A DNA stretch of 64,000 bases. Origin: Ricordea florida (lineage: Eukaryota > Cnidaria > Anthozoa > Corallimorpharia > Ricordeidae). A program made the translations under genes and the position numbers. Shown one piece after another: positions 36,133-62,424 of the stretch; the first letter of the stretch is position 1; each line of letters starts with the position of its first letter. The notes below the pieces were generated by a model. The model worked only from the letters and a program-made list of their open reading frames with translations, made no database searches and was not told the DNA's origin. The stretch lies in the NCBI GenBank assembly GCA_949710005.1, contig OX453275.1:3007473-3071472 (forward strand), in the 5' to 3' direction.

Positions 36133-39100
36133 TCAGTCGAGTATTACGATGGTCTCACTTTCATCTTCAGTACCTTCCTCGACTTCTGCTCTGTAAGGGG
36201 ATTGAGATCTCTCATAAGAAGGGCCAACTTTCTCAAAGACATTGGTCAGCTTTTGGTGACTGTGAGTGATACAGATTACTTGGTAGCCAATAACACCGCG
36301 CACTGCAAGGGCCCGAGAAAATGACCTATCGCTGCCTCGCACTCCCCACTGGGGATTGTTGCGTTTGTCCTTATCTTGCACTTGGAATTCTTCATCGTTG
36401 AAAATGATGTCATCTGTGACGAAGTTCATCCCTTGTAAAGCAGATGCGTTGTTTAGCACCACTTGATATCGTTGTTCACTTCGCATGTAATGCTCGGAGG
36501 GGTATTTGGCCATGTAGTCGTACCTCCTGGTAGATTCATGAGCCAGTGCCACGCCAGCAATGCGGTTGATATTATCGTGAAACATCTTTTCCTTGCATTT
36601 GTCAACAAACTTTTGTTGGAAACAGCTCAGTTGTTTTTTCTTCTCTTCATCCTGTCCGCAGTCAACTGAAACTTTATCCATGGTGAATGGGCTATCTAAC
36701 CGTCCTACATTCGTCTGTACCTCCTCAAAACTCGTGTCGTTCAACAAGAGCGAACGGGCAGCGTTCTTCGTTTTCTTTGCCCATGATGGCCAGTCTTGAA
36801 CGAATTCGTCCCAGAGGTCGTCCCTTTCATCGCTTGACAAGGGGTTAACAGTCTTCTTCAAACATTCTTGGTAGACTCGCTGGCCAAACAAAAGACCCCT
36901 GCCGAACGTACACTTGTGCCAACGATGGTCATTTTCATTAAACTCGTACATTTGTTTGATGTCATCATCAACTGTCCAGTACAAACGAAAGCTTAAGCAT
37001 TCTGCGAGGCTTTTGATGATCGACCTGGTCACGCCAATTCCACGACCGTTTTGTGGGAGAACCACATACCTCAAATTTATCTGTCTGTCTTTGGGTACTA
37101 CTTTCATGGCAATCGTCCGCTTTAGATCTACCAAGTGCTGCTTTTCCACAACAAGAAATATGTTGAACTCAAGTGTGCCCTCCTGCACAGTTTCATCTCG
37201 TTCTTCGCCTTCCTCCGTGGCGCTCCACGGATCCTCTTGGAGGTAGTAGTTTCCCATTATGTTGGACTGTGGGCCAGGGCGGATTGTTGGGATGAAAATA
37301 GGTGCCAGAGTATTTGCGGGATCGACAAACGTCATCCGCATAGTCTCAAGATCTTTTTGCACGGATACAGTCATCCGTACCTCAAGGCAAAACCTTTCGC
37401 GAACCTCGCTTTTCTCCAGGTGCATCTCATTTTCGGGAAGCGATTGATCTTCCACAATACAGCAGGAAACACGAGATACCTGATGGGCAAATAGCCGTTC
37501 CCTGGCCTTCTTCATGAGGCTACACACTACAGCGTCTTGTGAATCAACTTTTTGTACTAAGTCAGGGTCGAGCTCAACTGCAAAATGATCCTTGTCACTA
37601 AGGATTTTTGTTAGGGCAACTGGCCAAAGTGTACGCTTCTCCACAATATTGGGCTCTCGCAGAACTAAAGCATTTTTCTAAAGCTTTAGCAACTGCTCCA
37701 GCCTGCGGACAGGATCAATTTTCTTGTTAGGCATCTTTAGGATCTTGGTCATTTCCTCTATTATTCGTATGTGGTTTTCTGTGGCTTGTCTTTCATATGA
37801 GCCACTTGATGTTTCTCTGAGTTGGTCCGGAAGTGTGGTGTGGTCCAACAGAGAACTTTTATAACTAGGATGTGGGTTGACGTTGCGAATCTCTTCCCTG
37901 CAAACATCAATAACGACATTCATGTTCTTGGAAAGAAACTTAAGAAGATCAAGTCGACCTGCAGGTCTCACCACACGAAACAACTCCTCGACATCGCTTT
38001 TAAGACATTCCACTAGCTGAAGAGGGGAGTGTTTGTTCCGCTGTAAGTTTCGAGAAGATTGCACCACAATGTTAAACATTTTTTCAAGTAGGTCGTGAAA
38101 TAATTCAATGCAAAGACCTTTCCTACCTTCCTCGTCACAACGCGTCCAGTCCTTCTTTAATTTGCGAAATGAAACCCGATTTTTGCACTTTTTGGACTCA
38201 ATTACTTGACAAACATAGTCTCGAGCTTTAACTGTGCAATAGCTAAGTACTCTACCTTCACATAGCATCTCAGCCAATTCTCTGTGATCTTCGGGAACCT
38301 CTCGAGAAGCAGCACTGTAAGCGTCTTCTACTGCAGTGATCAACTTTCTTCTAAACATTTCCAGAGAATCTTCGACGGCAGTTAAAACAAATGTCAAGGT
38401 TTCTTCTGATCTCAAAAACTCGTCACAAATGATACTGAGGTTTTCTGCGTCACTACTGAAAAGCACATTTTTCTCGGCTAGGAAAGACTCCGCAAGAATG
38501 TCCGATTGTTGAACACCATAATAAATCTCAAATATTGGATAATTAACTTTGACATTTACTTCCTCGACCCTCTGGGAAACTTTTTTGACACTGGCACACG
38601 ATTTATTTAGTTGGGTTTTAAGCTTCATGGCAGCCCAATGGACCTTGTTTAGAAACGGATGAAACTTGTTCTTTGTCCTGACAGTATTTATATGGTTGTT
38701 AATTACATCCTTTAAGGTCTTAAGAAAATCGGGATTGTTTGGATGAAACACAATAACATCACTTTCCTCTTGTAACCTTTCCAGAAGATCATCTCCCCCA
38801 AGCTGAGGTAGCTTCCCTTTAACTTCCTTGTACCTCTGGGGGATGTTCCCATCTTCAGTGGACAACAAAGTCGACCACGCCCTTTTAAGGTTCTCTCTCT
38901 GTTCCTCGTAACGAACTTGAAAGGCCTCCTGGTTTTCTTCATGCTGGTACAAATGGGGTGCGGTCACGGAGTCTCTGCCTGGGTTGTCGATGAGAACAAG
39001 CTTCGGCCTTAATACGTATTCGAACTCATCGTGCATTCTAAAGATAGTACTTAAATCTTCTAATGAGACTGGGCGCCCAGAGTGACCACCAGCAAAGAAG

Positions 39101-42100
39101 AAAATCAGATCAGATTTGCTCAGCTGAACATCAATTTTGTCGTCTCCAACTTTATCCCCGAGGCCCGGAAGGTCTTCAAACACCACGTCGACGTCTAACA
39201 CAAGATGACCAGAACTTGAACACTTCCTCTCTTTTAAATACTTAAAAATTGGGAAAGGCCCCTGAAATTCTACAAAGGCTGCATCATCTAAGGCCGTGAC
39301 TTCCATGAACTTCTCCTTCATTATGTTATTCATCGTTCGAGTACCAAACATCAGGTTTCTGGTGGACAACTTTCTTGTGTAAAGACACCTGCACTTTATT
39401 TCCGTACTTAAGGCGGACAGGCACCGGGGTCTGACTTCCTCCTGGACCCGAAGGCAATGGACCGTCAGCCATCCTAACGTTATCGGGTAGCCCAGAATTT
39501 AAAAGAAAATTCAGCATGTAGCTTTTACCAACCCCTTGAAGCCCTAAAACAGCTACAGTAAGACTTAAACTATTTTCTGAAGTAAGTTTGGAATGAAAAT
39601 TATCGATACTCTCACTGATTAACTTTTCAACTTTCTTCATCTCACTTTTGCTCTTTTTGGACCACTTGTCTTCTTGTTGATAAAGCAAATACCACGTTCC
39701 TTCCATTACAAGTGATAAATGACTTATTTTCTCCCAAAGTTCATGCTCTGGTGTTACGCCACTGAATGTCATCGCTTTTTTCTTTGTATAGCCGACTATG
39801 TCTGCCAAACAGAAAAAAGAAGAATAGAATGATAATTACAATAAAGTTAGACAAAGAGAAAGAGATAAAGGGGACGGTGTGGGGAGGGAGCGAGAGAGCA
39901 GCCAAACAAACAGGTACAGGCATAGGTAGTTGGCAGAAAGGGGAAGGCGGAAAAAAAACAGAGGGGATGGGGGAAAGGGAAGAGACCAAGGAAGCAGGAA
40001 GGGAGATGAAAAGGAAAGGTTTTCAAAAAAGGAGGTAATGAATGTTTGGAAGAAAGGACAAGGGAAAGCCAGTGGAGGGGCAAAGCCAGAGAAAGCCAAT
40101 GGAAGGGGCAGGGCAAGAGAAAGAGAGCAACGAGGAGGGAAAGAAAAACGGAATTTGGGAAGGAAGAGTGGTGAAAAGTGGATAAAATTCTTACCTAAGG
40201 CAGCCTTGACACCAACTTCAATGCACTGTGCTTTTAACGCTGTCATATCGCCAAATGACAGAAGAGGGAACACACACTGGGGACGTTTAACTATCTGCCC
40301 AAGCCCTCTAAAATCTATTTGTGACCCAACAGGAGCAATCATAGTTTTCACGTTGTTAGTATTTAGGTGCTCTGATTGCACAATGCAAGCTTCTAATTCC
40401 GTCCCATCTCTTTCACTTTCAGCAGTGATAAGGAAAAGAAGTTTCTTGTGCTCACTTCCATTCAATGTAATGATATTTTAAGATTCCATAAGCTGAAAAG
40501 CACTGGCTGCCTCTTTCAATGCCAAACTTATCCTTCCACTCTTGCTGCCAACTGTTTCTCTTATCAGCAATCCACGGACAGTGAAAGGTTTTGATTTATA
40601 TGGATCAAATCTAATCCTTGTTATGGCAGAATCCCCATATGTAATTACGGCAGCCCTGGATTTTCCTGGAACAACATTCAAGCTACTAGCCAGGCACTCA
40701 ACAAAGTCAAGTTGCTTGGTAATATCTTCCTGAGAGACATTAGCTGAATAGTCCAATGCAAAGACTATGTCTGCTGTGAATTCTTTATCTGCTAAATGAA
40801 GACAACAAAGGACACATGTCTGTACTTGTGAGATACAACGTGAGATAATTTTAATAACATGTTTTTTCCTTACATCCTACTTCCCTCGTGCATGTTTAAA
40901 ATTCAGAAGCAGCAAAGGTTCAACATTAGTCACTATCAGTCAGCTAATGACAAGTAGCTGTTACATCAAAAAAATAATAATGATCTTAAATACATATATT
41001 TTAATGAAGTCATTTGTCACAGCTAGACAAATAATAATGGCAGGGGAATATTAGTTTGTGACAGTACAGAGCAAGCAGACAAACAATATCACCCTGATGT
41101 GTTCATTCTTAACAAGGGACGTTTTGAGAAATCCATTACACTTTTGTTCATTCCTTTCATTATTTCTCAGTACATGAAATGTTCAAGAATTCTGGGAAAG
41201 CAAAATAGAAATATGGAGAGATTTGTTCTGTTGTAAAATTGGTTCACAATGGGACTTCTGATTGGAAAAGAACAAACGAGGGCATGTTTTCAATTGTTCA
41301 TATAAGCACTGGTAATATGCATATATCATAACAACCATTTTTTCACCCATGAAAAGACTTAGTTGTTGTTCAAATACAATTACATGATGGTAGTCATTTT
41401 ACCTGACTCTGCAAACTGAGACTCTGGAGAAGACACAAAGGGCTTCTTATTTCCTGGTACAAAGACAACAAAGAATAGTACGCACAAAATAAATAGAGAA
41501 GAAAGGATACATAATTACATAAATAACCATAAACAGATCCAAAATAACCATTAAACATATCAAAATATTATTATAATAAAGAAATGCATATTAGAAATTA
41601 GACTGTGAACAGTCTGACTTTTTGCTTCAGACCCTGGCCGTACCAATGTTAAAGCTTATAAGGAGAAAAGGCACAACACTGAGTTATGGCAATGGGGAGA
41701 ATGCTGCATGCCGCATTACCCATGCCTCACCCTCCTACTGTGAGATGGTGTGTCGTTTTCCGCACACAGATACTGTTTGCAGTCCATTCAGAAATGGGTT
41801 TTTTGCATCAAATTAAATCCAAATTTACAGTATTTGACAATATTATAATGTAAATGTTCCATTAGATTCACCTTCTCCACTGGCAACATTGTCAGAGGAT
41901 TTCCGTTTCCGCATTTGTACTCCATTCGATTGGATGGCACCACAAACTGCAGAGTCTTTACCTATTTAAAAAAAGAATCTTTGACTGTTGCATACTTTAA
42001 CTATGTGACGAGACTCACCAATTACCAGAATGTACATGTACTATATAAATATTATTGTTGTAGCTTAATCATGAGAACCAACTGACCTTCCATTAAATCA

Positions 42101-46717: not shown

Positions 46718-46832
46718 CCGGGGGGGGGGGGTACTCGATATATCCCTGGGTGGGGAGGTGCGGCACGCCCCCTCATACCCTGACCCTGTTTAAGACAAAT
46801 ATCGCGGATTTTCCAACCCTGTTTAAGACAGA
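46718..46832. mobile_element. Left half of a TIR repeat split by the Polinton
   Basis: It starts CCCGGGGGGG...GGTACTC and contains ACCCTGACCCTGTTTAAGAC and a second CCCTGTTTAAGACA. The matching half, ending with the complement CCCGGG, is at 61950-62424. The Polinton target copy ACAGA is its last five bases (46828-46832). Confidence 0.7.
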
Positions 46833-47064
46833 AGTAGTAATAAAAAGCGGTTTCTGAGACAAAAAAAAATAAAAAAAAAAAAAATAAAAAAAAGTTTCTG
46901 ATTAAGTTTATAAATTGTTCTGCGACATTTGAATTAGTATGGGTAATCCTTTCTTAAGTTTTAATTTTCGCCGGACCGGGACTAGGATAAAAATAAAAAA
47001 TGATAAATATATGTGATTTAAAAAGAAGAATAATGAAATATAAAATGGAGAATTTAGAAAGATT
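46833..47064. repeat. Left terminal inverted repeat of the Polinton
   Basis: Begins AGTAGTAATAAAAAGCGG and is the reverse complement of 61719-61949, with only small differences in A-run length. It includes an A-rich run, a GGACCGGGACTAGGATAA stretch and the start codon of polB (47045). Polinton ends usually start with AG, as here. Confidence 0.9.
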
Positions 47065-50000
47065 GAATGTTCTACAATTGAAAGAACTTGCCAAAGAGCG
47101 GGGTATACCGAGATATTATTTGTTGCGTCGAGCTTAACTTATTGGTGCACTTAATATTGAAAATCCCCAAAACCAATTACAAAGATTAAATGTGCCACAA
47201 TTGAAAGAACTTGCCAGAGATCGTGGTATTCCTGATTATTATAGGCTGCGTAAAGCTGAACTTATTGTTGCTCTTAATAATATTGAAAATCCACCAAACC
47301 AACAACAAAGACCCGCTACTACACCTAGAAATAATATACCAAACCAACCGCAAAGACCTGAGATTAATGTTCCAATTCCACCACCCCCCAAACCACAAAA
47401 GCCATCAAACAAAACTTTTAATTGGGGAAATTATTCATTTAAGGTTATGGATAAAGATGAGTTTTCCAAAAAGCTTGCAGATTTAACCAATGAAAATATC
47501 ATAAAACTTACTAATAACATCAATCAAAAACCAAGAACTAAAGAAGATGAAAAAAATGTGAGAAATGAATTTTATGATAGAGTAAGAGATGAATTGAAAG
47601 AAGAAAAAGAATTCAATATAGAAGAACAACAAACAGCATTGAGGGGATATCTGAAAACTTATAGGATAAATGGAAAGAAAGGTTATGGGCCAAAAGCGTT
47701 TTTAAATAATATCAAACCAAAAGTTCTTGATCTAATTAACCAGAAAAAGAAACCGATCAAGGTGAAATTTATATTTACGTGTAAGTTTATAAAAAAGAAT
47801 CCCGCAACAAGAAAGATTGATGAAAACTTAGGGCACTTTCGTTCAAAAGTAGAAACGATTACTTTATCAACTGATTTATCTGAATTATTCAATATGATGA
47901 CAAATCGTCAACTTGAATTGATTGAAAAGTTTCAAAATCAAGGTTCTGGTTGGCAATTCGATCAAGTTGAAAACTTTGATATAAACATTGACCCCTTCGA
48001 GCCGCTTGTTGGAAGTTCATATATTGAATTACCACAAATATTAGCAAAAAAGAAGGCTATTATAAATGTTAAGAATGAAAATGATCATGAGTGTTTTAAG
48101 TGGGCTGTAACCTCTGCAGTTTACATACAAAAAATTCATCCAGAAAGACTAAACAAAAAAATGATGGAAAACTCAAAGAACTTTGACTGGTCGGGAATGG
48201 AGTTTCCTACCTCACTAAAACAAATTAACAAGTTTGAAAAACAAAACCCCTACTACACTATTAATGTTTACGGATATGATAAAGGTGATGTATGTCCACT
48301 AAGAATAAGTAAAAAACAAAAAGGTTATCTAATCAACCTACTTCTAATATCAGAAGGTGAAAATAATCACTACTGCTGGATAAAGAATATTAGTAGATTG
48401 TTAGCCTCAAAAGTTAGTAAACATAAATCAAAGATGTACTTTTGTCCTAGATGTCTAAACGCATTCCAGTCAGAAACTTCATTGGAAAAACATCTTGAAT
48501 ATTGCGAAACAAATGAAGAAGTAAAGATTGTTATGCCTATGGATAAAGATGGAAATCCTAAGTTTATTAATTTTAAGAACTTTATTAAAAAAATGCGAGT
48601 ACCCTTTGTTGTATATGCGGACTTTGAGTGCTATCCAGAGAAAATATACACCTGCTCGCCAGATGAAAGTGAAAGTTTTACAAATCAATACCAAAAACAT
48701 AAAGCATCGGGATTCAGTTATCTCATAAAATCTTTTGATGATAAAATATTTCCACCCGAGCTTGCACAATACACCGCCGAATCCTCAGATGATGATATCC
48801 CGCAGATATTTGTAGATAATTTGGAGCAGGATATTAAAAAAATTTACAATAAGTTTAAATATAAAAAGAAGGTGGGGGATATGTCAGAAATGGATAAAAA
48901 AGACTATAAAAACGCCGCTCGCTGTCACATCTGTGAGAAAGAATTGGGAGAAGATAAGGTATTAGATCACTGCCATCTTACAGGAAAGTATAGAGGGGCA
49001 GCTCATAATGAATGCAACTTAAATTACAAGATTCCAAAGTTCTTCCCAGTAATATTTCACAACCTATCTGGATATGACGCTCATCTTTTTATAAAGAATC
49101 TTGGTAAAACAAAAGGCAATATAAACTGCATACCTAATAATGAGGAAAAGTATATTTCTTTTACAAAACAGATTGTGGTTGATACATTTACAAATAAAGA
49201 AGGTAAGCGTGTTGAGGTAAAACGAGATATTAGATTCATAGATTCATTTAAATTTATGCAAACAAGTCTGGATAAATTGGTAAATAATTTACCAAAAGAA
49301 TCTTTCAAAAACTTAAATATTTTCTATGAAGGTGAGAAATTAAATTCATTGTTGAGAAAAGGCGTTTTTCCATATGATTGGTTTGACAGCTTCGATAAAC
49401 TAAACGCAACTCAACTTCCACCTAAAGAAGAGTTCTACTCAAAACTCAACGATGAAGATATAACACAAGATAACTACCAGCATGCTAAAAAGGTGTGGGA
49501 AACCTTCAATATGAAAACAATGCGGGAATATCACGACCTATATCTTAAGTCGGATGTATTACTTTTAGCAGATGTATTTGAGAACTTTAGAGATGTTTGT
49601 CAAAAGAATTATAACCTTGACCCCGCCCAATATTATACTGCACCAGGACTAGCTTGGGATGCTGCATTAAAGATAACAAAGGTGAATTTGGAGTTGCTGG
49701 CTGACATTGACATGCTACTTATGATTGAAAAAGGTGTTCGGGGTGGAGTATCCATGATATCTACTAGATATGGTAAATCAAATAATCCATATATGGGCGA
49801 ATATGATCCAAAACTACCTACAAAGTATATTACATATCTCGATGCAAATAACTTATATGGTGGGGGAATGAGTAAACCGCTGCCCACTCATGGTTTTAGA
49901 TGGATGAGCGAAGAAGATCTTAAAAACTGGAAAAATATACCATGCATAATCGAGGTTGATTTAGAATATCCCAACCACCTTCACGACTTGCATAATGATT

Positions 50001-51061
50001 ATCCTCTTGCTCCAGAGAGACTTACAATTAATAAGGTTGAGAAATTGATTCCAAACCTAAACAATAAGGTAAAGTATGTTGTTCATCATGAAACCCTTAA
50101 AGTTTATGAAAGACTAGGATTAAAAATAACAAAGATTCATAGAGGCATTACATTCAAAGAGTCAGCTTGGTTAAAACCATACATTGACTTGAATACAAAC
50201 CTCAGAGCTAAAGCAAATAATGATTTTGAGAAAGATTTCTTCAAACTTATGAATAACTCCGTATTTGGTAAAACAATGGAAAACATTAGAAAAAGGGTGG
50301 ATGTACGATTAGTTACGAATGAAAAAGATTCGAAAAAATTAATATCAAAACCTAACTATCAGCATCGCACAATCTTTTGTGAAAATCTTATAGCCAACCA
50401 CATGAAGAAAACAAAGTTAGTATTCAATAAACCCGTTTACTTGGGTATGTGCATTCTGGATCTAAGTAAAACAATAATGTACAACTTTCACTATAATTAT
50501 ATTAAATCTAAATACGGAGAAAAGGCAAAGCTGTTGTTTACAGATACGGACAGCCTTGCATATGAGATAGAGACAGATGATTTCTATAAGGATATCAGTC
50601 CTGATGTTAGAGAAATGTTCGATACCAGCAATTTTCCTAAAAACCATCCATCAGGCATCGAGACAGGCATAAACAAAAAAGTCATCAATATGTTTAAAGA
50701 TGAGGCTGGCGGTAGGCAGATAACTGAATTTGTAGGCCTACGAGCAAAGCTTTACTCCTACAGAATGGATGAGGGTGAAGAAGAAAAGAAATGTAAGGGA
50801 GTAAAGAAGGCGGTTGTAAAAAAGGCCATAAGATTTGATGATTATAAGGATTGTCTATTCTCCAGGAAAAACCAGATGAGACAGATGAATGTAATAAGAA
50901 GCCATATGCATGATGTTTACACTGAAAATGTTAACAAAGTTGCGCTGTCTTGCGATGATGATAAAAGAATAATTTGCAAAGATGGAATACATACTTTTGC
51001 CTACGGACATTATCGGGTAGAACCCGACAAAACAGAGTCCGGCGGTAATTGTGTATCATAA
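47045..51061 (+). CDS. polB: Protein-primed family B DNA polymerase of the Polinton (one early in-frame stop)
   Basis: The frame starts at ATG 47045 inside the TIR, meets TAA at 47135-47137, then is open to 51061. The open part from 47138 has no nearby ATG (next Met at about 47446). N-terminus: two copies of a SAP/Rho_N-like motif (LKELAKERGI..YY..R.), the first holding the stop where the second has a Glu codon, then a Pro-rich linker. Numbering from 47045: C2H2-like YFCPRCLNAF (about 465), exonuclease VVYADFEC (522), endonuclease VII-like CHICEKEL...DHCHLTGKYRGAAH (625-660), NLSGYDAHL, polymerase A motif YLDANNLYGG (931), NNSVFGKTMEN (1068), and TDTDSLAYE (1165). It replicates linear element DNA with a protein primer. 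Its end overlaps the integrase tail by 52 bases. Confidence 0.9.
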
Positions 51062-52008
51062 GGTACAACTTGTAATTCTTCCCTTACAAAACCTCGTCTA
51101 GGCCCATCAATTAAATAATATAAAACCGGCTGATTTGGTGAAATTATACTTTTATAAATATTATAAACTTTAATACTCCAAATTGGATCTGTAGCGCGTC
51201 TTTTTTCTCCACCTTCAAGCTCGCCGGGAGATAATAGATATCTAACTTTAACCTCTGGTGGTAATCTATCCTCATCAAGACCAACAACTCGTTGATAATT
51301 TTTAGTTTCAATATTCACCTCTTTCTGTTTTATAGCCTTAACGGGCTCTTTACCAGTTATTCTAGTTGGTGTATTATTCAAAGTTTTTAGAATATCTGGC
51401 AATCTTTTCACCCATACTCTAGATCTGGTATCACTTATCATTTCCTGCGCATATTGATGACTAAATAATCTTTCACCTAATATTCTGTTTGCTCTTTCAA
51501 CAAATGCTTGAGCTCTATGGTTTCCAGCTTCACTTCTTTCTATGTTAACATTATGATAATTCATAAGTTTTGTAACCTCACCCATAAATTCTTTTCCAGG
51601 ATCAACCATTAATGTTTTAGGGTATTTCAATCTTCTAGAATATATTTTTGTAAAAGCTTCTGATATCTCTCGACTTTCTTTTGAGGTTAATGGCTCCGCA
51701 TCTTTATATCTCGAGGCGATATCAACCACAACTAACGCATATTTATATGTTTTTCTTCCAACTCTATCATGCGGTAAAAATAATAAATCTGCTTGGTGAA
51801 TCTGATTTGGTTTATCCACAGTCCAATGCGGCCTAGGTATATATTTTGGTGCCGGTAGATATATTTGCCATATTGCTTGTTTTTGTAACCATTTTTTAGC
51901 CACATTTTCACTTACTTTCGCCTTCTCAGCTAATTTAGGAATTGCAGAATATCCTTTCCAATATCCTTCAGTTGAATAATATATTTTTGATATCTTTTCG
52001 TTACTCAT
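51010..52008 (-). CDS. Polinton integrase (retroviral type)
   Basis: 332 residues from ATG 52008. An N-terminal helix-turn-helix-like region (KLAEKAKVSENVAKKWLQKQ) precedes the rve catalytic core: D in HQADLLFL, D in LMVDPGKEFMG, and E in AFVERANRIL. This matches the D,D-35-E pattern of retroviral and Polinton integrases. The C-terminal part (KVRYLL...GFVREELQVVP) is SH3/chromo-like. It would cut and join the TIR ends, which gives short target duplications like the one seen. The gene is convergent with polB and shares 52 bases with it at the 3' end. Its start is 33 bases from that of the next gene, so the two share a divergent promoter region. The frame is intact. Confidence 0.92.
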   Translation of the reverse strand: MSNEKISKIYYSTEGYWKGYSAIPKLAEKAKVSENVAKKWLQKQAIWQIYLPAPKYIPRPHWTVDKPNQIHQADLLFLPHDRVGRKTYKYALVVVDIASRYKDAEPLTSKESREISEAFTKIYSRRLKYPKTLMVDPGKEFMGEVTKLMNYHNVNIERSEAGNHRAQAFVERANRILGERLFSHQYAQEMISDTRSRVWVKRLPDILKTLNNTPTRITGKEPVKAIKQKEVNIETKNYQRVVGLDEDRLPPEVKVRYLLSPGELEGGEKRRATDPIWSIKVYNIYKSIISPNQPVLYYLIDGPRRGFVREELQVVPYDTQLPPDSVLSGSTR

Positions 52009-52013
52009 TTAAG

Positions 52014-52041
52014 GATTAACCAAAGTATCTTATAAATTATA
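52014..52041 (+). promoter_or_regulatory. 28-bp leader, first copy
   Basis: Starts GATTAACCAAAGTATCTT and ends AAATTATA, directly before ATG 52042. The identical 28 bases recur at 52245-52272, two bases before the capsid ATG. It lies between divergent start codons (52008 minus and 52042 plus). Confidence 0.65.
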
Positions 52042-52236
52042 ATGGAGGAAGAAAAAATAAATTTTAGCGAATACCAAATTAATATGATGAAAAAAATTAT
52101 AATTTCAAAAATTCACAATATGGAAGATGGTGATGAACTTTTTAATGTAATGCTTGTAATTGAAGGAGTAAGAGAAAGTTTAGTAAAATATATTGAAGAA
52201 TTAGATAATAAAAAATACCAATTCAGATGCCTATGA
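52042..52236 (+). CDS. Small Polinton protein, 64 residues, unknown
   Basis: An acidic, helical protein (EEEKINFSEYQINMMKKI; later NVMLVIEGVRESLVKYIEEL) with no family I recognise. The start is supported by the 28-bp leader that also precedes the capsid gene. It sits between the integrase and the capsid gene. It could be a small regulator or accessory structural protein, but nothing in the sequence decides that. Confidence 0.6.
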   Translation: MEEEKINFSEYQINMMKKIIISKIHNMEDGDELFNVMLVIEGVRESLVKYIEELDNKKYQFRCL

Positions 52237-52244
52237 GGTTTAAA

Positions 52245-52272
52245 GATTAACCAAAGTATCTTATAAATTATA
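52245..52272 (+). promoter_or_regulatory. 28-bp leader, second copy, upstream of the capsid gene
   Basis: Identical to 52014-52041. It is preceded by TTTAAAG, so the TTTAAAGAT motif found before other Polinton genes overlaps its start. ATG 52275 follows two bases later. Confidence 0.65.
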
Positions 52273-52274
52273 CA

Positions 52275-53513
52275 ATGACGTCTGAAAAAATTAATCCAAA
52301 CAGAATTCCTAGAGAGCCATTTGGTTTGAAGGCAGAATCAACATTGAATCGAATTACTCTCAATCCATCCTCAGCTAGCCCTGGAGAAACATTATATATA
52401 AATATTCCAAAACTTTCTGAGAATTTAGTGATTGTACCAGGAAGTGTATCTCTATTATTTGATTTAGATGTAGATGAGCATGCTAATAATACACTTGTGA
52501 ATAATGTAGGTAGTAATCTTGTATCTAGACTTAGAGTTCTTTTTGGTGGTGAAACATTACAGGATACTCAAAGATATGATCTTTTTCAAACCTATCACGA
52601 CTTATTCTTAACAGATGAAGAACGCGAAGATAGATTAAAACAAGGTATTTCTTCTGAAAACATGAGAAAGCTAAGGACAAATGCGGGTGATAAGAAAACA
52701 CAAGATGTTAAGGCAGTGACTCTTGCATCAGTACATAACACCAAGTATCGTATACCACTAAACCATCCTATTCTAAACGATCATGGAGTTTTTTACCCAA
52801 AAGCTCTAGATCATCATCTAATATTTGAGATTACACTTGCTCCAGTTAATGATATTGTTGTTTATTCTGACACTACTAAGACTCCATCTTATTCAATCAA
52901 AAACCTTGAGTTAGAATATTCTTCCATTTCAAGTGAATACTTGGCTCGTGAGGCACAAGCAGCTTATCAAGTCGGCAAAGGGTTTTTTTATGAAAATGTT
53001 ACTCTACACAAAACTTTTACATTTTCTATAGGCGGTGATGGTGTTATAAATCAGCATATTAATCTACCCAGAAGATCAATGACAGGGATATTATGTTTGT
53101 TTACATTACCAATTGCAGCAGGAGCACGTAACTCTGAATTTTTTTACAATCCAGGTATAACCTCAATTAATATAGATGTTGATGGTGTTCCAAATCGTTT
53201 ATACTCTAAGGGGATGATACCATCAGATCTATGGGAGTCAGTAAAGAAACGTTTTGGACTGACCGAAGGGAGGCAGTCGGTAAAGGAAAAGGATTTTTAT
53301 GCTGATAAGTTTGCTCTTTGGGTTGATATGAGAACTCACCCTGATAATGGTATTCATGGAGGTGGTCTAGCATTAAACAATACACAAGATGGTGTAAAAC
53401 TAGAAATTAAAAGAAAACAAAGTGGATCTGGAACTATAACCTGTCATATGTTTGTTGTAGCTGATGCAATGATGGAGATTATGAATTCAGGTTTACGCTC
53501 CATTAAGTACTAA
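52275..53513 (+). CDS. Polinton major capsid protein (double jelly roll)
   Basis: 412 residues, intact. The sequence is beta-rich with features I associate with Polinton and virophage-like major capsid proteins: an N-terminal PREPFGLKAESTLNRI, a LRVLFGGETLQDTQRYDLF strand-turn region, FYADKFALWVDMRTHPDN and a C-terminal MFVVADAMMEIMNSGLRSI. It is followed 20 bases later by the packaging ATPase, the usual capsid-ATPase neighbourhood. It would form the hexon trimers of an icosahedral capsid. The length is at the short end for the family. The fold assignment comes from sequence resemblance and context; structure prediction would settle it. Confidence 0.8.
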   Translation: MTSEKINPNRIPREPFGLKAESTLNRITLNPSSASPGETLYINIPKLSENLVIVPGSVSLLFDLDVDEHANNTLVNNVGSNLVSRLRVLFGGETLQDTQRYDLFQTYHDLFLTDEEREDRLKQGISSENMRKLRTNAGDKKTQDVKAVTLASVHNTKYRIPLNHPILNDHGVFYPKALDHHLIFEITLAPVNDIVVYSDTTKTPSYSIKNLELEYSSISSEYLAREAQAAYQVGKGFFYENVTLHKTFTFSIGGDGVINQHINLPRRSMTGILCLFTLPIAAGARNSEFFYNPGITSINIDVDGVPNRLYSKGMIPSDLWESVKKRFGLTEGRQSVKEKDFYADKFALWVDMRTHPDNGIHGGGLALNNTQDGVKLEIKRKQSGSGTITCHMFVVADAMMEIMNSGLRSIKY

Positions 53514-53533
53514 ATTTAAAAAAATATTATGTT

Positions 53534-54175
53534 ATGATACAAAAAATCATGGAAGAACTACAAGAAAAAATACCATTCCATTGTATCATATCCGGCCCAA
53601 CAAATTGTGGAAAAACAAAGTACCTCATTAATCAGCTAAGAGGACCATTCCGAAAAATTTTTGATTACATTGTTTTAATATGTCCAACTTATTCTAAGAA
53701 TAAAACCTATAATAATTTTGCTCGAGGAGATAAACATTTCTATGTATTATCACCAGATGCTAGTAACATTGATGAGATTAATGAATTGTTAACTGATTGT
53801 CAAACTTTATTCTCTGGAACAAATACATTAATAATTTTAGATGATTGTGCTGTATCTAATGATTTGAAGAAGCGATCAAACAAGTTTATTGATTTAGCAT
53901 TTTCTGGAAGACATCATGGATTATCAGTTTGGGTTCTCACTCAGCAATTAACATCTATTGCAAAACCATTTCGAGAAAATGTAGCTTGTGTTGTTACTTT
54001 CCATAACCCATCGCAAAAAGGTATGAAGATGTTTTTTGAAGATTATGGAGGAGATATGGATTATGAAACTAGTAAAAAGTTTGTTAAACTCCTGAAAACT
54101 GAAAAATATTCTAGACTGTGTTTATCTTTAAGACACCCATTTAATTGCTATTTAGAGATTCCTGAAGTGATTTAA
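53534..54175 (+). CDS. A32/FtsK-HerA-type genome-packaging ATPase
   Basis: 213 residues, intact. Walker A is GPTNCGKTKYL (about residues 22-29) and Walker B is TLIILDDC (about 97-104). A downstream VWVLTQQL gives the sensor Gln typical of the A32-like branch, and SGRHHGLSVW precedes it. Such ATPases pump DNA into preformed capsids of Polintons, virophages and large DNA viruses. It follows the capsid gene and precedes a cluster of unknown late-type genes. The length fits the compact Polinton version. Confidence 0.92.
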   Translation: MIQKIMEELQEKIPFHCIISGPTNCGKTKYLINQLRGPFRKIFDYIVLICPTYSKNKTYNNFARGDKHFYVLSPDASNIDEINELLTDCQTLFSGTNTLIILDDCAVSNDLKKRSNKFIDLAFSGRHHGLSVWVLTQQLTSIAKPFRENVACVVTFHNPSQKGMKMFFEDYGGDMDYETSKKFVKLLKTEKYSRLCLSLRHPFNCYLEIPEVI

Positions 54176-54201
54176 AAATAGTAAATTTATCACCATAAAA
54201 G

Positions 54202-54753
54202 ATGACAAACGTTGAAGATTACATTGAAGAAGAAAAGACTGTAGGAAAAACAGAGGTAAAAGATAATGATGATAATGAACTTGAAATAAAACAAGAATCA
54301 CTAGCAATTCTAGCAGCTCTTGGAACCACAAAGGAATATTTAGGAGTTGAAATGAGTTTGGGTGATATAAAAAAATTATCAGAAAAAGATGTAGAAAAAT
54401 ATTTTAATCGATATCAAGCGGTAATGGGTAAAAAAATTAACGGTGGATTGGTTGATTCATCCCTTCAATTAGTTTCCAAACTTATTTCATATTTAGTTCC
54501 CGTGGATGATATAGAAGCTCTTTGTGCGGATTTGAAGAATGATGATTTGGTTAATCGCGAACTAACAAACATTGTAGGGCTCTTAGCATTGAAAGCAGGA
54601 AGATTGACAGCACTTGCTAGCGGTATATTTCAGGTTGCTAAGCATGTTAAAATAGGAAAAATACAGCAAGTTACAAGTACTAATACAGATGATTATAACA
54701 AAACTGAGCAGACTACTAAGCAAGATGCTGCTGGTACTGATACTGTTTACTGA
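54202..54753 (+). CDS. Unknown Polinton protein, 183 residues
   Basis: An acidic N-terminus (DYIEEEKTVGKTEV) is followed by a mostly helical body with LAALGTTKEYLGVEM, SEKDVEKYFNRYQAVMG and a mildly hydrophobic C-terminal stretch (IVGLLALKAGRLTALASGIF) that could touch membrane or pack as a helix bundle. I do not recognise a family. It lies between the ATPase and the membrane-protein block and is intact, so a structural or morphogenetic role is plausible but unproven. Confidence 0.65.
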   Translation: MTNVEDYIEEEKTVGKTEVKDNDDNELEIKQESLAILAALGTTKEYLGVEMSLGDIKKLSEKDVEKYFNRYQAVMGKKINGGLVDSSLQLVSKLISYLVPVDDIEALCADLKNDDLVNRELTNIVGLLALKAGRLTALASGIFQVAKHVKIGKIQQVTSTNTDDYNKTEQTTKQDAAGTDTVY

Positions 54754-54769
54754 GCATACTATTATTTTA

Positions 54770-54818
54770 TTTACATATCATTCCTAAGTGGTCTAAAGAT
54801 TTCTTAATGATATGTAAA
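54770..54818. promoter_or_regulatory. Intergenic stem-loop with TCTAAAGAT in the loop
   Basis: TTTACATATCATT (54770-54782) and AATGATATGTAAA (54806-54818) are perfect 13-bp complements. The loop holds TCTAAAGATTTCTT, the motif shared with other gene starts. It could terminate the upstream transcript and mark the next start at once. Confidence 0.5.
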
Positions 54819-54821
54819 ATA

Positions 54822-55262
54822 ATGTCTGAACAAAATGAACAAGTTGAACAAATTACAGCTGATCCCAAACCAGAAAATAAAGATACAAAAAAACGGGAAA
54901 AAGATCCTAAAAAAGTAGCAGCTGGTAAAAAATTAGCTGAATATAATAAAAAAGCAAAAGATGCATTAGCCAGGGAAATGAAACGTGAAGAGCAAATTAA
55001 AAGGGAAGAAGAGACCCTACGAGCCGCGGTGCAAAATGAAAATGTAGAAAAGACAAATAATGAATCGAAAGCGTGGCTACCGGAACTATCTTTTACAACA
55101 GTATTATCAATTGTTGGAATAGGTTTTACAGCATTTGATATGTTTATGAGATATTATAAAAACAGAATACCTGATTTATCTCAAGTTCCTCAAATACCGT
55201 CGCCATCAAATATTCCCTCTCAACCACAAACGCTAGATCGACCAAAAATTGGAATGATGTAA
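54822..55262 (+). CDS. Lys/Glu-rich single-TM Polinton protein
   Basis: Start chosen at ATG 54822 because the TCTAAAGAT leader has the same spacing to it as in the neighbouring genes; an in-frame ATG at 54807 would add five residues. 146 residues: a charged, coiled-coil-like N-terminal half (KKVAAGKKLAEYNKKAKDAL, REMKREEQIKREEETL), one membrane helix (FTTVLSIVGIGFTAFDMFM), then a Pro-rich tail. The N-half could bind DNA or protein. I do not know the function. It is intact. Confidence 0.65.
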   Translation: MSEQNEQVEQITADPKPENKDTKKREKDPKKVAAGKKLAEYNKKAKDALAREMKREEQIKREEETLRAAVQNENVEKTNNESKAWLPELSFTTVLSIVGIGFTAFDMFMRYYKNRIPDLSQVPQIPSPSNIPSQPQTLDRPKIGMM

Positions 55263-55272
55263 TTATAAATTA

Positions 55273-55325
55273 TTTTTTTACTACATAAAGCCATTTAAAA
55301 GTTTCTTACTGATGTAGTAAAAAAA
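55273..55325. promoter_or_regulatory. Intergenic stem-loop with TTTAAAAGT in the loop
   Basis: TTTTTTTACTACAT (55273-55286) and ATGTAGTAAAAAAA (55312-55325) are perfect 14-bp complements. The loop carries TTTAAAAGTTTCTTACTG, a variant of the motif in the loop at 54783-54805. ATG 55328 follows immediately. Confidence 0.5.
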
Positions 55326-55327
55326 TC

Positions 55328-55546
55328 ATGTCAAACGAAAACAAACTTGTGAAAACTGTTACTGATTCTGCAGTCCTTATTGGATTAGCAGCTGGTGTTG
55401 GATATGTAGCTAAAAAGGCTATGAAAGAATCATTTATGAACGACCCCTCCTCAAGTATTACAAATTATGCAAAATGGGTAGCTGTATTGTCTGGTAGTAT
55501 GTACCTAAAAACATATTTAGAGGAACAAAAGATTTTACCAAATTAA
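55328..55546 (+). CDS. Small membrane protein, 72 residues
   Basis: A helix rich in Ala/Gly/Val (SAVLIGLAAGVGYVAKKAM) and a second weak hydrophobic stretch (YAKWVAVLSGSMYL) suggest one or two membrane passes. It has a good start context after the leader with TTTCTTACTG. It ends nine bases before the next start. Family unknown. Confidence 0.6.
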   Translation: MSNENKLVKTVTDSAVLIGLAAGVGYVAKKAMKESFMNDPSSSITNYAKWVAVLSGSMYLKTYLEEQKILPN

Positions 55547-55555
55547 AGAATAATA

Positions 55556-55954
55556 ATGGCATTTGTTTCAATAGCAATGATGGTTGGAGGAGCAGTATTA
55601 AACTCAACAGCATTTGTTGGTGGGTCATATCTCGCAAAATATTTATCAGGAAATAAAACTGATACAGAAAAAATAAGACACGATAAAGCAATGGAAAAAT
55701 ATCAAAGAGATTATGCAGAATATCAGGAAAAAAGACAAAAACTAATGGATTGGAAAATGAAGAAAAAAGATGAAAAATATCAAGCATCAAAAAATATTTC
55801 AAAAACAAATGAACAATTTGCATTATATAACCAAATGCATGAGCCAAAATTCTCAGATTATTATAAACCAAGCGATAATCAAAAGACTGGAGAAATGTTA
55901 TATGTGGGTGGTGGTATGTTAGCTCTTGGTTACACAGTTAGTAAATTTTTATAG
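55556..55954 (+). CDS. Membrane-anchored coiled-coil protein, 132 residues
   Basis: An N-terminal hydrophobic segment (FVSIAMMVGGAVLNSTAFVG) is followed by a long charged helix (HDKAMEKYQRDYAEYQEKRQ) and a second hydrophobic segment at the C-terminus (GEMLYVGGGMLALGYTV). It follows the 72-residue gene after nine bases, so the two are probably co-transcribed. I do not recognise the family. Intact. Confidence 0.6.
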   Translation: MAFVSIAMMVGGAVLNSTAFVGGSYLAKYLSGNKTDTEKIRHDKAMEKYQRDYAEYQEKRQKLMDWKMKKKDEKYQASKNISKTNEQFALYNQMHEPKFSDYYKPSDNQKTGEMLYVGGGMLALGYTVSKFL

Positions 55955-56003
55955 TTAGTTTGCTTTGCTCGTTTAAAGATTTCTTACTGATGAGTAAAAA
56001 ATC

Positions 56004-57380
56004 ATGGAAGAAGATATACCATTATTAGATTTATCAGGAGATAATGATGATGATTATGATGATGGTGATACTCCCCCCGCAGGTGAACCTCCCAATCGTC
56101 GACCGGGCACTCCGCCTCTAAGTAGAGATTTAGTCGATGATGATAATGATGATGGTGATGGCGCATTTCACCAAAGTCCAAATACATCTACATCTGTTGA
56201 TCAGGGCTATCTTGGTTATTCAGAATATATGGCAGAAAGAAAACGGCTTCAATGGGAAATAAAAGATGAAGAGAAAAAACCAACAAATATTATAGAAAGA
56301 GATGAGGAATATGATAGAATGAGAGAAGCAAGACAACAACTTAAACGTTATTTGCCAGACTTCAATCCAGACGACGCAACATTTAATGTTGAATTTGAGA
56401 AAGATGGAAGTATATCAGGAAAATTTAGCAATAATCCAAGAGCAGCAAAACATATAATAATTGATAAAGATGGAGTTCTTAAGCTTGAAGATTTACCAAA
56501 AACAATGAGAAAAGCTCTAGGCGCTGATTATGAAACAATGCTGGAAAAATATAATAATTCTGAGTCAGAATTGAGAAAATCTAATGAAAAAATTAGAGAA
56601 TTAGATAATGTATTGAAAGAAGCCAATGAAAAAATTTCAGATTTAGATAGTGCATTGCAGGGCTTAGACTCTGCCTCAAAAGTAAATCTACAAGAAATTG
56701 CTCAACATGAAGAAAAAGTAAGAAGGCTTGGTTTAGTAATTGAAAGCCAAAAAGCAGAAAAAGAAAATATGGAAAGAGATGCTTCAGAAGGTAAAAGACT
56801 TTTTGATAAAACCGCTAAACAGAATATAGAGTTAAAAATACAACAAGATAAAATTTTGAAAGAAATAAAATTATACAAAGAAGAAATAGATAAATATAAG
56901 AAGGATAAATTAAATGCAGCAAATCTAGAGCGAAGCAATGAAAGATTAAAATCTGAGATTGATAAATTAAGAGAGAAAATTAGAAATAAAATAATTTCAA
57001 GCGATGAACAAATATCAGAAATTCAAGCTAGAAAAGATGAAATACTTAAAAATTTACCATTACGGGAGCGACTAAAGTATATCTTCAAAAAGTATGGTTT
57101 TACAGTTTTTTCTGTTATTGCTGCAGTAGGTGTTATAATTGGTGTTATAGTTTCTAATCTTTCTAAAGGTTTATCAACATTAGGAAAAGGTGTAGGGAAT
57201 GGTTTGAAAACTATAGGTAAAAAATTAGGTGAAATATTACCAGGAATGGTTGGTGCAATAGTTAGCTTTCTATTCAAAACAGCCGGGCAAGTTATTGGAT
57301 TTTTAGGTGAAAATGCTTGGCTCTTGATAATGGCTGTGGTTCTATATTTTGTGGAAAGTATAAAAAAGAAGAGAAAGTAA
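56004..57380 (+). CDS. Long coiled-coil protein with C-terminal membrane helices, 458 residues
   Basis: An acidic low-complexity N-terminus (Asp runs at residues 10-22 and 46-52, Pro-rich linker) is followed by a folded region (about 110-170) and a coiled coil of about 170 residues (around 175-350). Two or more hydrophobic helices near the C-terminus (FTVFSVIAAVGVIIGVIVSN, VGAIVSFLFKTAGQVIGFL, WLLIMAVVLYFV) end in a Lys-rich tail. The start follows TTTAAAGATTTCTTACTGAT by a fixed spacing. The layout suits a spike, tether or fusion-type structural protein, but no family is recognised and I assign no function. Intact. Confidence 0.65.
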   Translation: MEEDIPLLDLSGDNDDDYDDGDTPPAGEPPNRRPGTPPLSRDLVDDDNDDGDGAFHQSPNTSTSVDQGYLGYSEYMAERKRLQWEIKDEEKKPTNIIERDEEYDRMREARQQLKRYLPDFNPDDATFNVEFEKDGSISGKFSNNPRAAKHIIIDKDGVLKLEDLPKTMRKALGADYETMLEKYNNSESELRKSNEKIRELDNVLKEANEKISDLDSALQGLDSASKVNLQEIAQHEEKVRRLGLVIESQKAEKENMERDASEGKRLFDKTAKQNIELKIQQDKILKEIKLYKEEIDKYKKDKLNAANLERSNERLKSEIDKLREKIRNKIISSDEQISEIQARKDEILKNLPLRERLKYIFKKYGFTVFSVIAAVGVIIGVIVSNLSKGLSTLGKGVGNGLKTIGKKLGEILPGMVGAIVSFLFKTAGQVIGFLGENAWLLIMAVVLYFVESIKKKRK

Positions 57381-57418
57381 CAAATTTAAAGATATCATGC
57401 CGTTCAGTAAAATACAAT

Positions 57419-58015
57419 ATGGAAGAATACAATAGAATTTATCCTGGATTACCTAATAATTCAGATCCAGTCAATTTCAGACTACAAAAATCAAGTGAAG
57501 TATTACAAAATCTTGAGAGAGAAATTAAACATTACGAAGATGTAAGGAAAAAATACAATAGAGCGAGAGGAATATTTACAAAAATCAGTGTTTGTAGTGG
57601 AGTGCTTTCAGTTATTCTATCCGCAAGCGGATTGGGAACTTCTCTTACTGGTTTTGGTGCTATTATTGGTGTTCCGTTGGGCGTTGTCGGTGGAATTTGT
57701 GGTGGAGTATCTGTTGGATTTGGTGCGGCATCAAAAAGACTTTCAAATAAAGTTAGCAAACATGAACAGACTGTTTCTATAGCGAAATCAAAATTAAACA
57801 CCATTAACGACTTGGTTTCAAAGGCTTTGAAAGATAATGTTATATCTGATCAAGAATTTTCCATAATTTTAGCAGAGTTGGAAAAGTTTCAAAAACTAAA
57901 ACTAGAAATCAGACAAAAATTTAGGAGAGATACAGAAAAAAACTTAAACATGTCACAGATAAGAAGAGAAGTTCGAGCAGATCTATTAAAAGAGTTAACC
58001 ACTCCCGCTCATTAA
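57419..58015 (+). CDS. Two-helix glycine-rich membrane protein, 198 residues
   Basis: Start placed at ATG 57419. The upstream part of the frame overlaps the preceding gene and looks non-coding, and TTTAAAGAT lies at about 57386-57394. A coiled coil (LQNLEREIKHYEDVRKKYNR) leads into a Gly-rich hydrophobic hairpin (VCSGVLSVILSASGLG, IIGVPLGVVGGICGGVSVGF), then a second helical region (KSKLNTINDLVSKAL, FSIILAELEKFQKLKLEIR) and a basic tail. The pattern resembles pore- or membrane-remodelling helical hairpins. The family is not known to me. Intact. Confidence 0.65.
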   Translation: MEEYNRIYPGLPNNSDPVNFRLQKSSEVLQNLEREIKHYEDVRKKYNRARGIFTKISVCSGVLSVILSASGLGTSLTGFGAIIGVPLGVVGGICGGVSVGFGAASKRLSNKVSKHEQTVSIAKSKLNTINDLVSKALKDNVISDQEFSIILAELEKFQKLKLEIRQKFRRDTEKNLNMSQIRREVRADLLKELTTPAH

Positions 58016-58024
58016 AAATTTCAT

Positions 58025-58153
58025 ATGAGAAAACTGATGTGGGTTGTAATTGTTTTGCAGGCATTAGAAATACTATTGAAGATTAATACTTTACATCTTA
58101 TTCTTAATCTAAAGACCAGATTATCTGAAACACAAAGAATAAGATGTTATTAG
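58025..58153 (+). CDS. Possible 42-residue hydrophobic peptide
   Basis: A short frame from ATG 58025 with a leading hydrophobic stretch (LMWVVIVLQALEILL) fills most of the gap between two Polinton genes and overlaps the next start by ten bases. No homologue is recognised. The overlapping start and membrane-helix composition are the only support. Confidence 0.25.
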   Translation: MRKLMWVVIVLQALEILLKINTLHLILNLKTRLSETQRIRCY

Positions 58154-59757: not shown

Positions 59758-60001
59758 TCGGTCAAAAACCTCCCTGCGAAGCGGAAATTTCACGTGATTA
59801 TCATTGTTTTTGGATTAGTGTTCACGTGTAGAACAATAGATTGCATACTTTTACGACATAGCAACAAGCAAAATGTAAAGTGGATTTGAAATCGAAAAGT
59901 AGATTTTATGTTTACTTTTAAAAGGTCGGTTTCTAACGTCGCTCAGGAATGTGATTACGTCAATGGAAATTTAAAGATGAATATGTTGTAATCAAACAAA
60001 A
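59758..60001. promoter_or_regulatory. Intergenic region with TTTAAAGAT before the minor capsid candidate
   Basis: It contains two TTCACGTG words and, at about 59971-59979, TTTAAAGAT 23 bases before ATG 60002. No coding sequence is seen. Confidence 0.4.
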
Positions 60002-60637
60002 ATGTTAAGCATTACCATGTATGAGTCCGAAACTAGGATTTATTTCGATCCACCACTGAAAAATCTTCGAGAGATACAGCTACTAGATTGTAATATACAA
60101 ACCAAAAGATTGATTAATTTCAAGGATCAACAGATATTATTCAATGATAAGAATCAAGCTCTCATAATAATTCAACCCAGTACATATTCATTGCGTGATA
60201 TTCAATCGATCTTTCTTAATGACACTGATAAGGCAAAGATAACAATAATTGAGACTGATACTGTTGACTATCTATATTCAAATAAGAACTTTAACATTAA
60301 ACTTACGAGAGGGTTAGCGGTTGGTTTAGGTATACCCGAAGTTATAAATCCAGGTAAATTATACCCCATAAATATACAGATTAAGGAACCGTTGAGACTT
60401 ATGTGTAGCATAGTGGATAATAAGTTGTCATATATGAATAACACTAAATATGGAGAACTTGTGAAACTCTCACCATCAAACCTACTTGCAAACATTCCCT
60501 CAAAGGATTATCCAACAATTCCGGTTAGAAAATATGATAGCGTTATAAACCACTTTGATTTAACCCTCTTAGACAGTGAATGGAAAAAACTTGATCTGAA
60601 GGGTTCTCCCATAACTTTTAGTTTAAGATTCAGATAA
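60002..60637 (+). CDS. Probable Polinton minor capsid (penton-like) protein
   Basis: 211 residues, beta-rich, intact. The N-terminus (ITMYESETRIYFDPPLKNLR) is followed by a central strand set with NIKLTRGLAVGLGIPEVI and a C-terminal YDSVINHFDLTLLDSEWKKL then DLKGSPITFSLRF. The size, beta content and this ending are what I would expect of the single-jelly-roll minor capsid protein that caps Polinton vertices. I rely on general resemblance, and the core set lacks another candidate. An accessory virion protein is the alternative. Confidence 0.5.
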   Translation: MLSITMYESETRIYFDPPLKNLREIQLLDCNIQTKRLINFKDQQILFNDKNQALIIIQPSTYSLRDIQSIFLNDTDKAKITIIETDTVDYLYSNKNFNIKLTRGLAVGLGIPEVINPGKLYPINIQIKEPLRLMCSIVDNKLSYMNNTKYGELVKLSPSNLLANIPSKDYPTIPVRKYDSVINHFDLTLLDSEWKKLDLKGSPITFSLRFR

Positions 60638-60686
60638 TTTTTTTGTTATGTAACCATTTTGAGTTATATAACATAATTATATTCTA

Positions 60687-61253: not shown

Positions 61254-61281
61254 TTTAATAATTTAATTTTTTATCTTTAAA

Positions 61282-61737
61282 TCATAATTCATTTTTTAAT
61301 TTTATTCTACATTCCTTACAAGAAGCTTTTTGTTTACCATGTTCGCATATTTGTGATCCTCCACACTCTTTACATTGTTGTTTTTGTTTCCCGTGAGTGC
61401 ATATTCCTTTACCTCCACATTCTTTACACCTATACTTTTGTTTCCCATGTTCGCATATTTGAGGTCCGCCGCATTCTTTACACCGATACTTATTTTTATT
61501 GTGTTTACATAATTGTGATCCTCCACATTCTTTACAAAAATACTTACACTTTCCATGAACACAAATATATTTATCATTAATAATAACTTTTGAGATTATC
61601 TTAATACTCTCTTCATCCATAAATTTTCCAATCTCTTTGATTAAATTTTTTTTATTCATTATATAATAACCTTTAATCTTCAACTCTCTAGCAATATTTC
61701 TCAATTGCGGTACATATAATCTTTCTAAATTCTCCAT
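61282..61737 (-). CDS. SAP-like plus Cys/His repeat protein, starts within the right TIR
   Basis: Start chosen at ATG 61737 inside the TIR, the same start and first codons as polB; upstream in-frame codons would add 15 residues. 151 residues. The N-terminus (YVPQLRNIARELKIKGYY) is a SAP/Rho_N-like unit resembling the two in polB. Then come five tandem units of about 16 residues, CxHGKxKxxCKECGG, with regular Cys and His that could bind zinc. Similar CKECGG/CEHG repeats occur in giant-virus and algal proteins, as I recall. DNA binding is a reasonable guess. Intact. Confidence 0.7.
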   Translation of the reverse strand: MENLERLYVPQLRNIARELKIKGYYIMNKKNLIKEIGKFMDEESIKIISKVIINDKYICVHGKCKYFCKECGGSQLCKHNKNKYRCKECGGPQICEHGKQKYRCKECGGKGICTHGKQKQQCKECGGSQICEHGKQKASCKECRIKLKNEL

Positions 61738-61949
61738 TTTATATTTCATTATTCTTCTTTTTAAATCACATATATTTATCATTTTTTATTTTTATCCTAG
61801 TCCCGGTCCGGCGAAAATTAAAACTTAAGAAAGGATTACCCATACTAATTCAAATGTCGCAGAACAATTTATAAACTTAATCAGAAACTTTTTTTGATTT
61901 TTTTTTTTTTTATTTTTTTTTGTCTCAGAAACCGCTTTTTATTACTACT
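61719..61949. repeat. Right terminal inverted repeat of the Polinton
   Basis: Reverse complement of 46833-47064. It ends CCGCTTTTTATTACTACT and is followed by ACAGA (61950-61954), the copy of the left flank. Confidence 0.9.
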
Positions 61950-62424
61950 ACAGAATTCCGATTTTTGATACCCTGTTTAAGACACTTAACCCGAAACCAT
62001 ACCCTGTGTAAGACAATAGATATCGAAACTCTTTCTAATTTAATCCATTGGCAATCACAAAACTATTTACAGCTCGATCAACAGAGTAACGAGGAGCTCT
62101 TTATGCTAAGTATACGGAGTTTACATCAAGCACTGAACGACTTTTTTAGGGTCTAGTGTAATCAACGGAAATTTAATGTGCCTGGTATCAATGCAAAGTC
62201 AACGGAAGTCAATATTAATTAACATTAGAGCTTGTAAAAATTTTGCTGTTTATCGTCCAAGAAAAGATATCCTGTTTAAGACAAAAATTGATAAATCGAT
62301 ACCCTGATTAAGACAAAAAATGATAAATTCGATACCCTGTTTAAGACAAAAATCCCGAAAAACATACCCTGGCTGGCCGCACGTCCCCATTAAGCCCTAA
62401 TAAGGGAGTACCCCCCTTCCCGGG
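61950..62424. mobile_element. Right half of the TIR repeat split by the Polinton
   Basis: It contains several ACCCTGTTTAAGACA-type words (near 61970, 62000, 62268, 62300 and 62335) and ends GGGAGTACCCCCCTTCCCGGG, the inverted counterpart of the left half at 46718. The two halves are unequal, so the host repeat had an asymmetric interior. A frame at 61920-62156 has no domain. Confidence 0.65.

Follow-up and report, generated by a model that had tools for sequence, protein, structure and literature searches.

How can two genes at opposite ends of a mobile element, encoding unrelated protein bodies, come to begin with the same codons? The question is raised by a Polinton-type element of 15,117 bp (46833-61949) in a 64-kb stretch of Ricordea florida DNA (hereafter the window, meaning the whole stretch analyzed). 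An earlier note on this DNA had claimed that 46833..47137 is a terminal inverted repeat (TIR) supplying the promoter, start codon, and first codons of both terminal genes, namely polB at the left end and a gene for a Cys/His protein at the right end. We followed this claim through the window and through related proteins.

Structure of the element and its shared gene starts

The element has TIRs, polB, an RVE integrase, a capsid-like gene, and an A32-like ATPase, as do Polinton/Maverick elements, and it is a Polinton in which both outermost genes read inward from within the TIR (Table 1). No maturation protease was found among the element pieces scanned with Pfam, which were a subset of the element's ORFs. 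ACAGA stands on either flank, a 5-bp target duplication to which a sixth base belongs only if it is shared with the left TIR; for vertebrate Mavericks, excerpts of PMC8097293 give a TIR length of 46-1,447 bp and target duplications of 6 bp. ACCCTGTTTAAGACA-type repeats lie on both sides of the element (46783-46833, 61964-61996, and 62266-62371), as if it had been inserted into an array of such repeats. Elsewhere in the window, judging by eye from the ORF list, a host-like gene region is present twice (19265-24001 and 36133-40876), its copies closely similar and inverted relative to each other; a copia-like polyprotein lies at 8555-12451 and a LINE-like reverse transcriptase at 27346-29227.

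Table 1 Coordinates of the features in and beside the element
Feature	Position	Strand	Basis or remark
Left target-duplication copy, ACAGA	46828..46832	.	6 bp (ACAGAA) if next base is shared
Left TIR	46833..47064	+	231/232 vs right TIR; stops 20 nt into polB frame
Promoter-like box TTTAAAAA	47017..47024	+	Begins 28 nt before ATG 47045; motif picked post hoc
polB frame start, MENLERL..., first Rho_N unit	47045..47137	+	In-frame TAA 47135-47137 interrupts
polB frame continuation: second Rho_N unit, proline-rich linker	47138..47446	+	Domain scan, 36.3 bits
polB ORF, 1204 aa	47447..51061	+	11 aligned relatives 67-84% identical
RVE integrase	51010..52008	-	PF00665 rve 37.2 bits, cut-off 32.6
Major capsid protein candidate	52275..53513	+	Capsid_N 23.9 bits, just below 24.0 cut-off
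A32-like packaging ATPase	53534..54175	+	Pox_A32 46.3 bits, cut-off 22.8
Right-end gene: Rho_N domain, then CxxC / CxH repeats	61282..61737	-	ORF and domain scan
Right TIR	61718..61949	-	Counterpart of left TIR
Promoter-like box TTTAAAAA	61758..61765	-	Begins 28 nt before ATG 61737; motif picked post hoc
Right target-duplication copy, ACAGA	61950..61954	.	Flank comparison

A position-by-position comparison of the element ends found 231 of the 232 TIR positions identical, with an exact run of 178 nt (46887-47064). The longer inverted arms, 46833-47098 and 61684-61949, were 95% complementary; identity over 47045-47098 was 80%, with all mismatches beyond 47064, and it dropped to 42% at 47099-47134 and to 26-30% in the following stretches. 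ATG 47045 of polB and ATG 61737 of the right-end gene are the same TIR codon. Both frames open with MENLER, the next codon being common in its first two bases only (about 6.7 exact codons), and the match ends 20 nt inside the ORF begun at 47045. The claim of one ATG with the same leading codons for both genes was thus borne out. That this shared ATG is the true start is our inference, because further in-frame ATGs lie 45 and 12 nt upstream in both arms (47000/61782 and 47033/61749). The TIR itself reaches 47064, and position 47137, where the earlier note had placed the end of the region, is the last base of an in-frame TAA that breaks polB in the window copy.

Rho_N (PF07498) scored above the Pfam gathering score of 24.9 in both terminal genes, with 29.0 bits in the right-end protein and 36.3 bits in the second unit of polB; the stop-interrupted first unit of polB scored 21.0 bits, below that threshold. 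polB has two tandem Rho_N units (a 103-nt repeat, 81%) and the right-end gene has one. The exact repeat does not cover the whole Rho_N unit, the remainder of which is similar but diverged between the two genes. Of the SAP/Rho_N-like N terminus previously described, the Rho_N part was upheld in both genes, and SAP (PF02037) stayed below its cut-off of 23.9 in the polB pieces (15.6 and 18.0), with no listed match in the right-end protein.

A candidate expression signal in the repeats

The two ATGs share their upstream region, including the box TTTAAAAA at the same distance from each, and the box is a putative common promoter. The more general motif YYTAAARA occurred within 70 nt upstream of 12 of the 14 start positions tested in the element, 9 of these 12 at 28-36 nt, compared with a mean of 0.87 and a maximum of 6 in 2,000 composition shuffles, a count that overstates its strength because the motif was chosen after inspecting the same regions. 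The starts without it were those of the integrase and of the ORF at 47447, the latter probably not a true start. A longer form of the box, like TTTAAAGATTTCTTACTGATG, was present at 54792, 55294, and 55972. YYTAAARA is a post hoc candidate for a promoter motif used across the element. It was not general in distant polB loci, where it lay upstream of 3 of 23 ORFs of at least 120 codons. Sigma-70-type promoters in the TIR were near chance (3 found and 1.8 expected), and that model is unsuited to a eukaryote.

N-terminal tags in related proteins

We collected the best 120 of 1,613 matches to the right-end protein and the best 120 of 826 matches to polB, the latter including records named Nematostella and Exaiptasia; three polB records that begin after the shared N-terminal stretch (hereafter the tag) were left out, giving 117. 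The first 80 residues of P0121, a query that itself targets the tag, gave 108 matches, one named Oculina, which by pattern comprised 25 Cys/His proteins and 76 polB-like proteins or fragments, with 7 left unsorted. Of the 222 proteins listed from the right-end and P0121-head searches, 137 contained two or more Cys/His units, and 38 of these 137 had a polB-type tag, as judged by a profile built from 109 of the 117 polB N termini. These 38, together with P0251 and P0276 added by eye, form the right-end set of 40, which represents the best-scoring proteins among the matches listed and not a census. P0336, first considered a further type of body, contains DANSLY, a polymerase-like motif, and was grouped with the polB-like proteins. 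In P0060, a right-end Cys/His protein is followed by a C-terminal stretch that by eye resembles the window ORF at 60687-61253; a fusion or a lost stop may account for it.

Among the 40 right-end proteins, 26 shared 30-84 gapless N-terminal residues with some polB of the 117 compared, and 21 of these 26 had at most 5 mismatches to the polB tag. Right-end protein P0243 and polB P0236, whose longest contigs are equally long, were identical over 77 N-terminal residues and then parted into their Cys/His and polB bodies (YTCKERRG versus VINRFTGW). Eight right-end/polB comparisons with equally long longest contigs, an indirect sign of origin from one contig, which may hold several elements, gave 34, 35, 25, 35, 28, 30, 29, and 0 identical residues of 35. 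Three of the five right-end proteins involved had such a partner at 34 or 35 of 35, and the other two reached 28-30 and 0; the value of 0 involves P0175, a polB record without a visible tag. The depth of sharing varied, from about 7 codons in the window element to 41 or 77 in relatives, and a junction after APVKS (about residue 74-77) recurred in several right-end proteins of one clade.

The remaining 14 right-end proteins shared only 2-9 gapless residues with any of the 117 polB proteins. In P0059, P0295, and P0325, the tag lies in another register (22-26 of 35 identical); in the other 11, among them the proteins that most resemble that of the window, the tags have diverged. P0325 (285 aa) joins a Rho_N head to part of the terminal protein (TP)-like region of polB and to Cys/His repeats. 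As for relatives with the motif on one gene only, which the earlier note had named as evidence against its reading, the tag was not visible in four of the 117 polB records (P0152, P0175, P0220, and P0221) and half visible in P0159, a pattern that fits truncation and true absence equally well.

When viral contigs were scanned with four queries (polB and the right-end protein of the window, the polB alignment, and P0178), no relative could be confirmed. The Cys/His alignment matched 15 loci in these contigs, at which tblastn with 11 window proteins (E 1e-3) found, beyond Cys/His, only an ATPase-like match on L013/L014, and a search for the tag pattern found no match; where matches reached toward the tag (L010, L022, and L024), the upstream frame lacked it by eye. 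L013 and L014 belong to a single IMG/VR contig (34,654 bases), on which the Cys/His gene and the A32-like ATPase match lie at mirrored positions, as if it were an inverted double genome. A scan of genome contigs found distant polB relatives at 9 loci labeled as bacterial MAGs; by eye, no Rho_N tag lay upstream of polB in the 7 of them inspected, two of which (L005 and L009) are cut off there.

Phylogeny of the tags and alternative explanations

A tree was built from 154 tags (114 polB and 40 right-end, the window's own included) over about 34 columns; the P0011 row was mis-cut, P0091 was omitted, and the rows are not independent. Tags that had always stayed with their own gene would be expected to give a single change between the polB and right-end labels. 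The label changed 25 times, compared with a mean of 32.5 and a minimum of 27 in 200 shuffles, and it changed 22 times among 25 hand-picked right-end rows with deep tags. Some gene-specific signal remains, because 25 changes fall below every shuffle; we attribute it mainly to right-end proteins resembling that of the window. The label of polB clade, with 6 polB rows and the window's 2 left unassigned, changed only 3 times over 106 rows, compared with a mean of 28.8 and a minimum of 23 in shuffles, so the tree is not merely unresolved. In addition, right-end body types 2 and 4, defined by pattern, occurred with tags of both polB clades. Because 25 label changes stand against 3 clade changes, the N-terminal tags, as read from these alignments, appear to follow the element more than the gene. 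The check for concerted evolution that the earlier note had proposed thus came out in its favor for the N termini, at the level of proteins; taken as a whole, the interpretation in that note was supported in part.

Several other histories could produce shared tags. A single past duplication could have carried the 5' end of polB to the right end, the matched pairs then being recent copies without ongoing homogenization. The recurring APVKS junction speaks for such an event, as does poxvirus ITR expansion, in which copying of one end of the genome onto the opposite end truncates or duplicates genes at the boundary (excerpts of PMC10230479); the likeness lies in end being copied over end with boundary genes affected, whereas poxviruses have another replication system, much longer repeats, and copying of whole genes rather than of a tag. 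However, in several right-end body types the tag goes with the polB clade, the label changes 25 times rather than once, and types 2 and 4 bear both tag clades, which makes a single duplication unlikely. Separate acquisition of a common Rho_N/SAP module by two unrelated genes, with selection on a shared target keeping the two tags similar and a TIR boundary falling in the genes by chance, would agree with the presence of a Rho_N/SAP-like motif on another body in P0340, which indicates that such heads are not confined to these two genes, and with the window Rho_N match persisting in both genes past the homogenized stretch. We consider it quite improbable nonetheless, given that DNA identity runs unbroken from the noncoding leader into the codons, that tags including their linkers are identical over up to 77 residues, and that the tag tree separates polB clades far better than genes.

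Most of the related records are unnamed predictions, and the predominance of polB-like proteins or fragments among the P0121-head matches (76 of 108) could suggest that the right-end proteins are chimeras of polB starts and Cys/His ORFs made by gene prediction or assembly. Yet the same architecture stands on one continuous DNA sequence in the window, and 15 of the 38 tagged clusters contain at least two member sequences; artifacts of this kind are therefore a very remote explanation.

Comparison with known elements

Yeast and mitochondrial linear plasmids are protein-primed, with inward-reading terminal genes and ORFs that start in or near the TIRs. The element resembles them as a presumably protein-primed linear element with inward-reading terminal genes, although we know of no linear plasmid in which a common N-terminal domain on unrelated bodies tracks the element. 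Relative to other Polintons and Mavericks, the difference here is a pair of outermost genes that begin within the TIR and carry a common Rho_N tag, a feature of which we found no mention in the excerpted text of PMC8097293 and PMC11071308. The latter, in the same excerpts, holds that Polintons replicate by protein priming and describes a TP-vOTU-PolB architecture for polintons and cytoplasmic linear plasmids. A structure model of the related polB P0127 shows that domain order, with regions like the Y-polymerase little finger (142-259), OTU (268-393), and phi29 polymerase (460-1176), in a polB model of low overall confidence (mean pLDDT 55.5). Our polB differs in the extra Rho_N head ahead of the TP-like domain; neither SAP nor Rho appears as a word in the main text of PMC11071308. 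Foldseek with the right-end protein model returned no significant match (best E 0.87).

A shared terminal tag was not found in the titles and opening abstract text of open-licence literature among the matches listed, and the portions of PMC12721341, PMC6211774, and PMC10583447 at hand do not address it.

Proposed mechanism and implications

From the sequence comparisons, we think it likely that TIR homogenization drives the concerted evolution of an N-terminal Rho_N tag on polB and the right-end gene. The common upstream sequence, the presumed start codon, and the opening codons of both terminal genes lie in the TIR, and the process that keeps the TIRs identical would equalize polB and the right-end Cys/His gene at their 5' ends as well. 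When an end is restored from the opposite end, the gene starts within the repeat are copied too; such copying would explain why the DNA of the leader and opening codons is exactly identical, why unrelated bodies bear matching tags, and why the depth of sharing varies. Occasional longer copying would make the Rho_N tag evolve in concert and leave the bodies unrelated, and the tags of relatives would likewise lie in their TIRs. The homogenizing agent may be protein-primed replication or recombination of the ends, with panhandle repair during replication, host gene conversion, and terminal recombination as candidate processes. Panhandle repair during replication has a precedent in adenovirus.

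The Rho_N head may bind nucleic acid and act at the element ends, a plausible role because in the model the tag precedes the terminal-protein-like domain. More tentatively, and with some doubt on our part, the TIR could serve as a domain-copying device that rewrites the head of polB, comprising promoter, start, and Rho_N and sometimes also a portion of the TP region (as in P0325), onto any gene at the far end. This would yield a matched end-binding pair, in which priming at the ends falls to a Rho_N-TP-polymerase and recognition of the same ends to a zinc-ribbon-like partner with Rho_N, the two being kept compatible by concerted evolution.

If TIR homogenization does act in this way, the end repair or replication of a linear element can bind two unrelated proteins to one domain and one expression signal, and end copying can give rise to new fusions at the far end. 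The divergence of tag versus body in paired elements would offer a direct route to study TIR homogenization, and the small Cys/His protein would be a candidate partner in protein-primed replication of Polinton ends.
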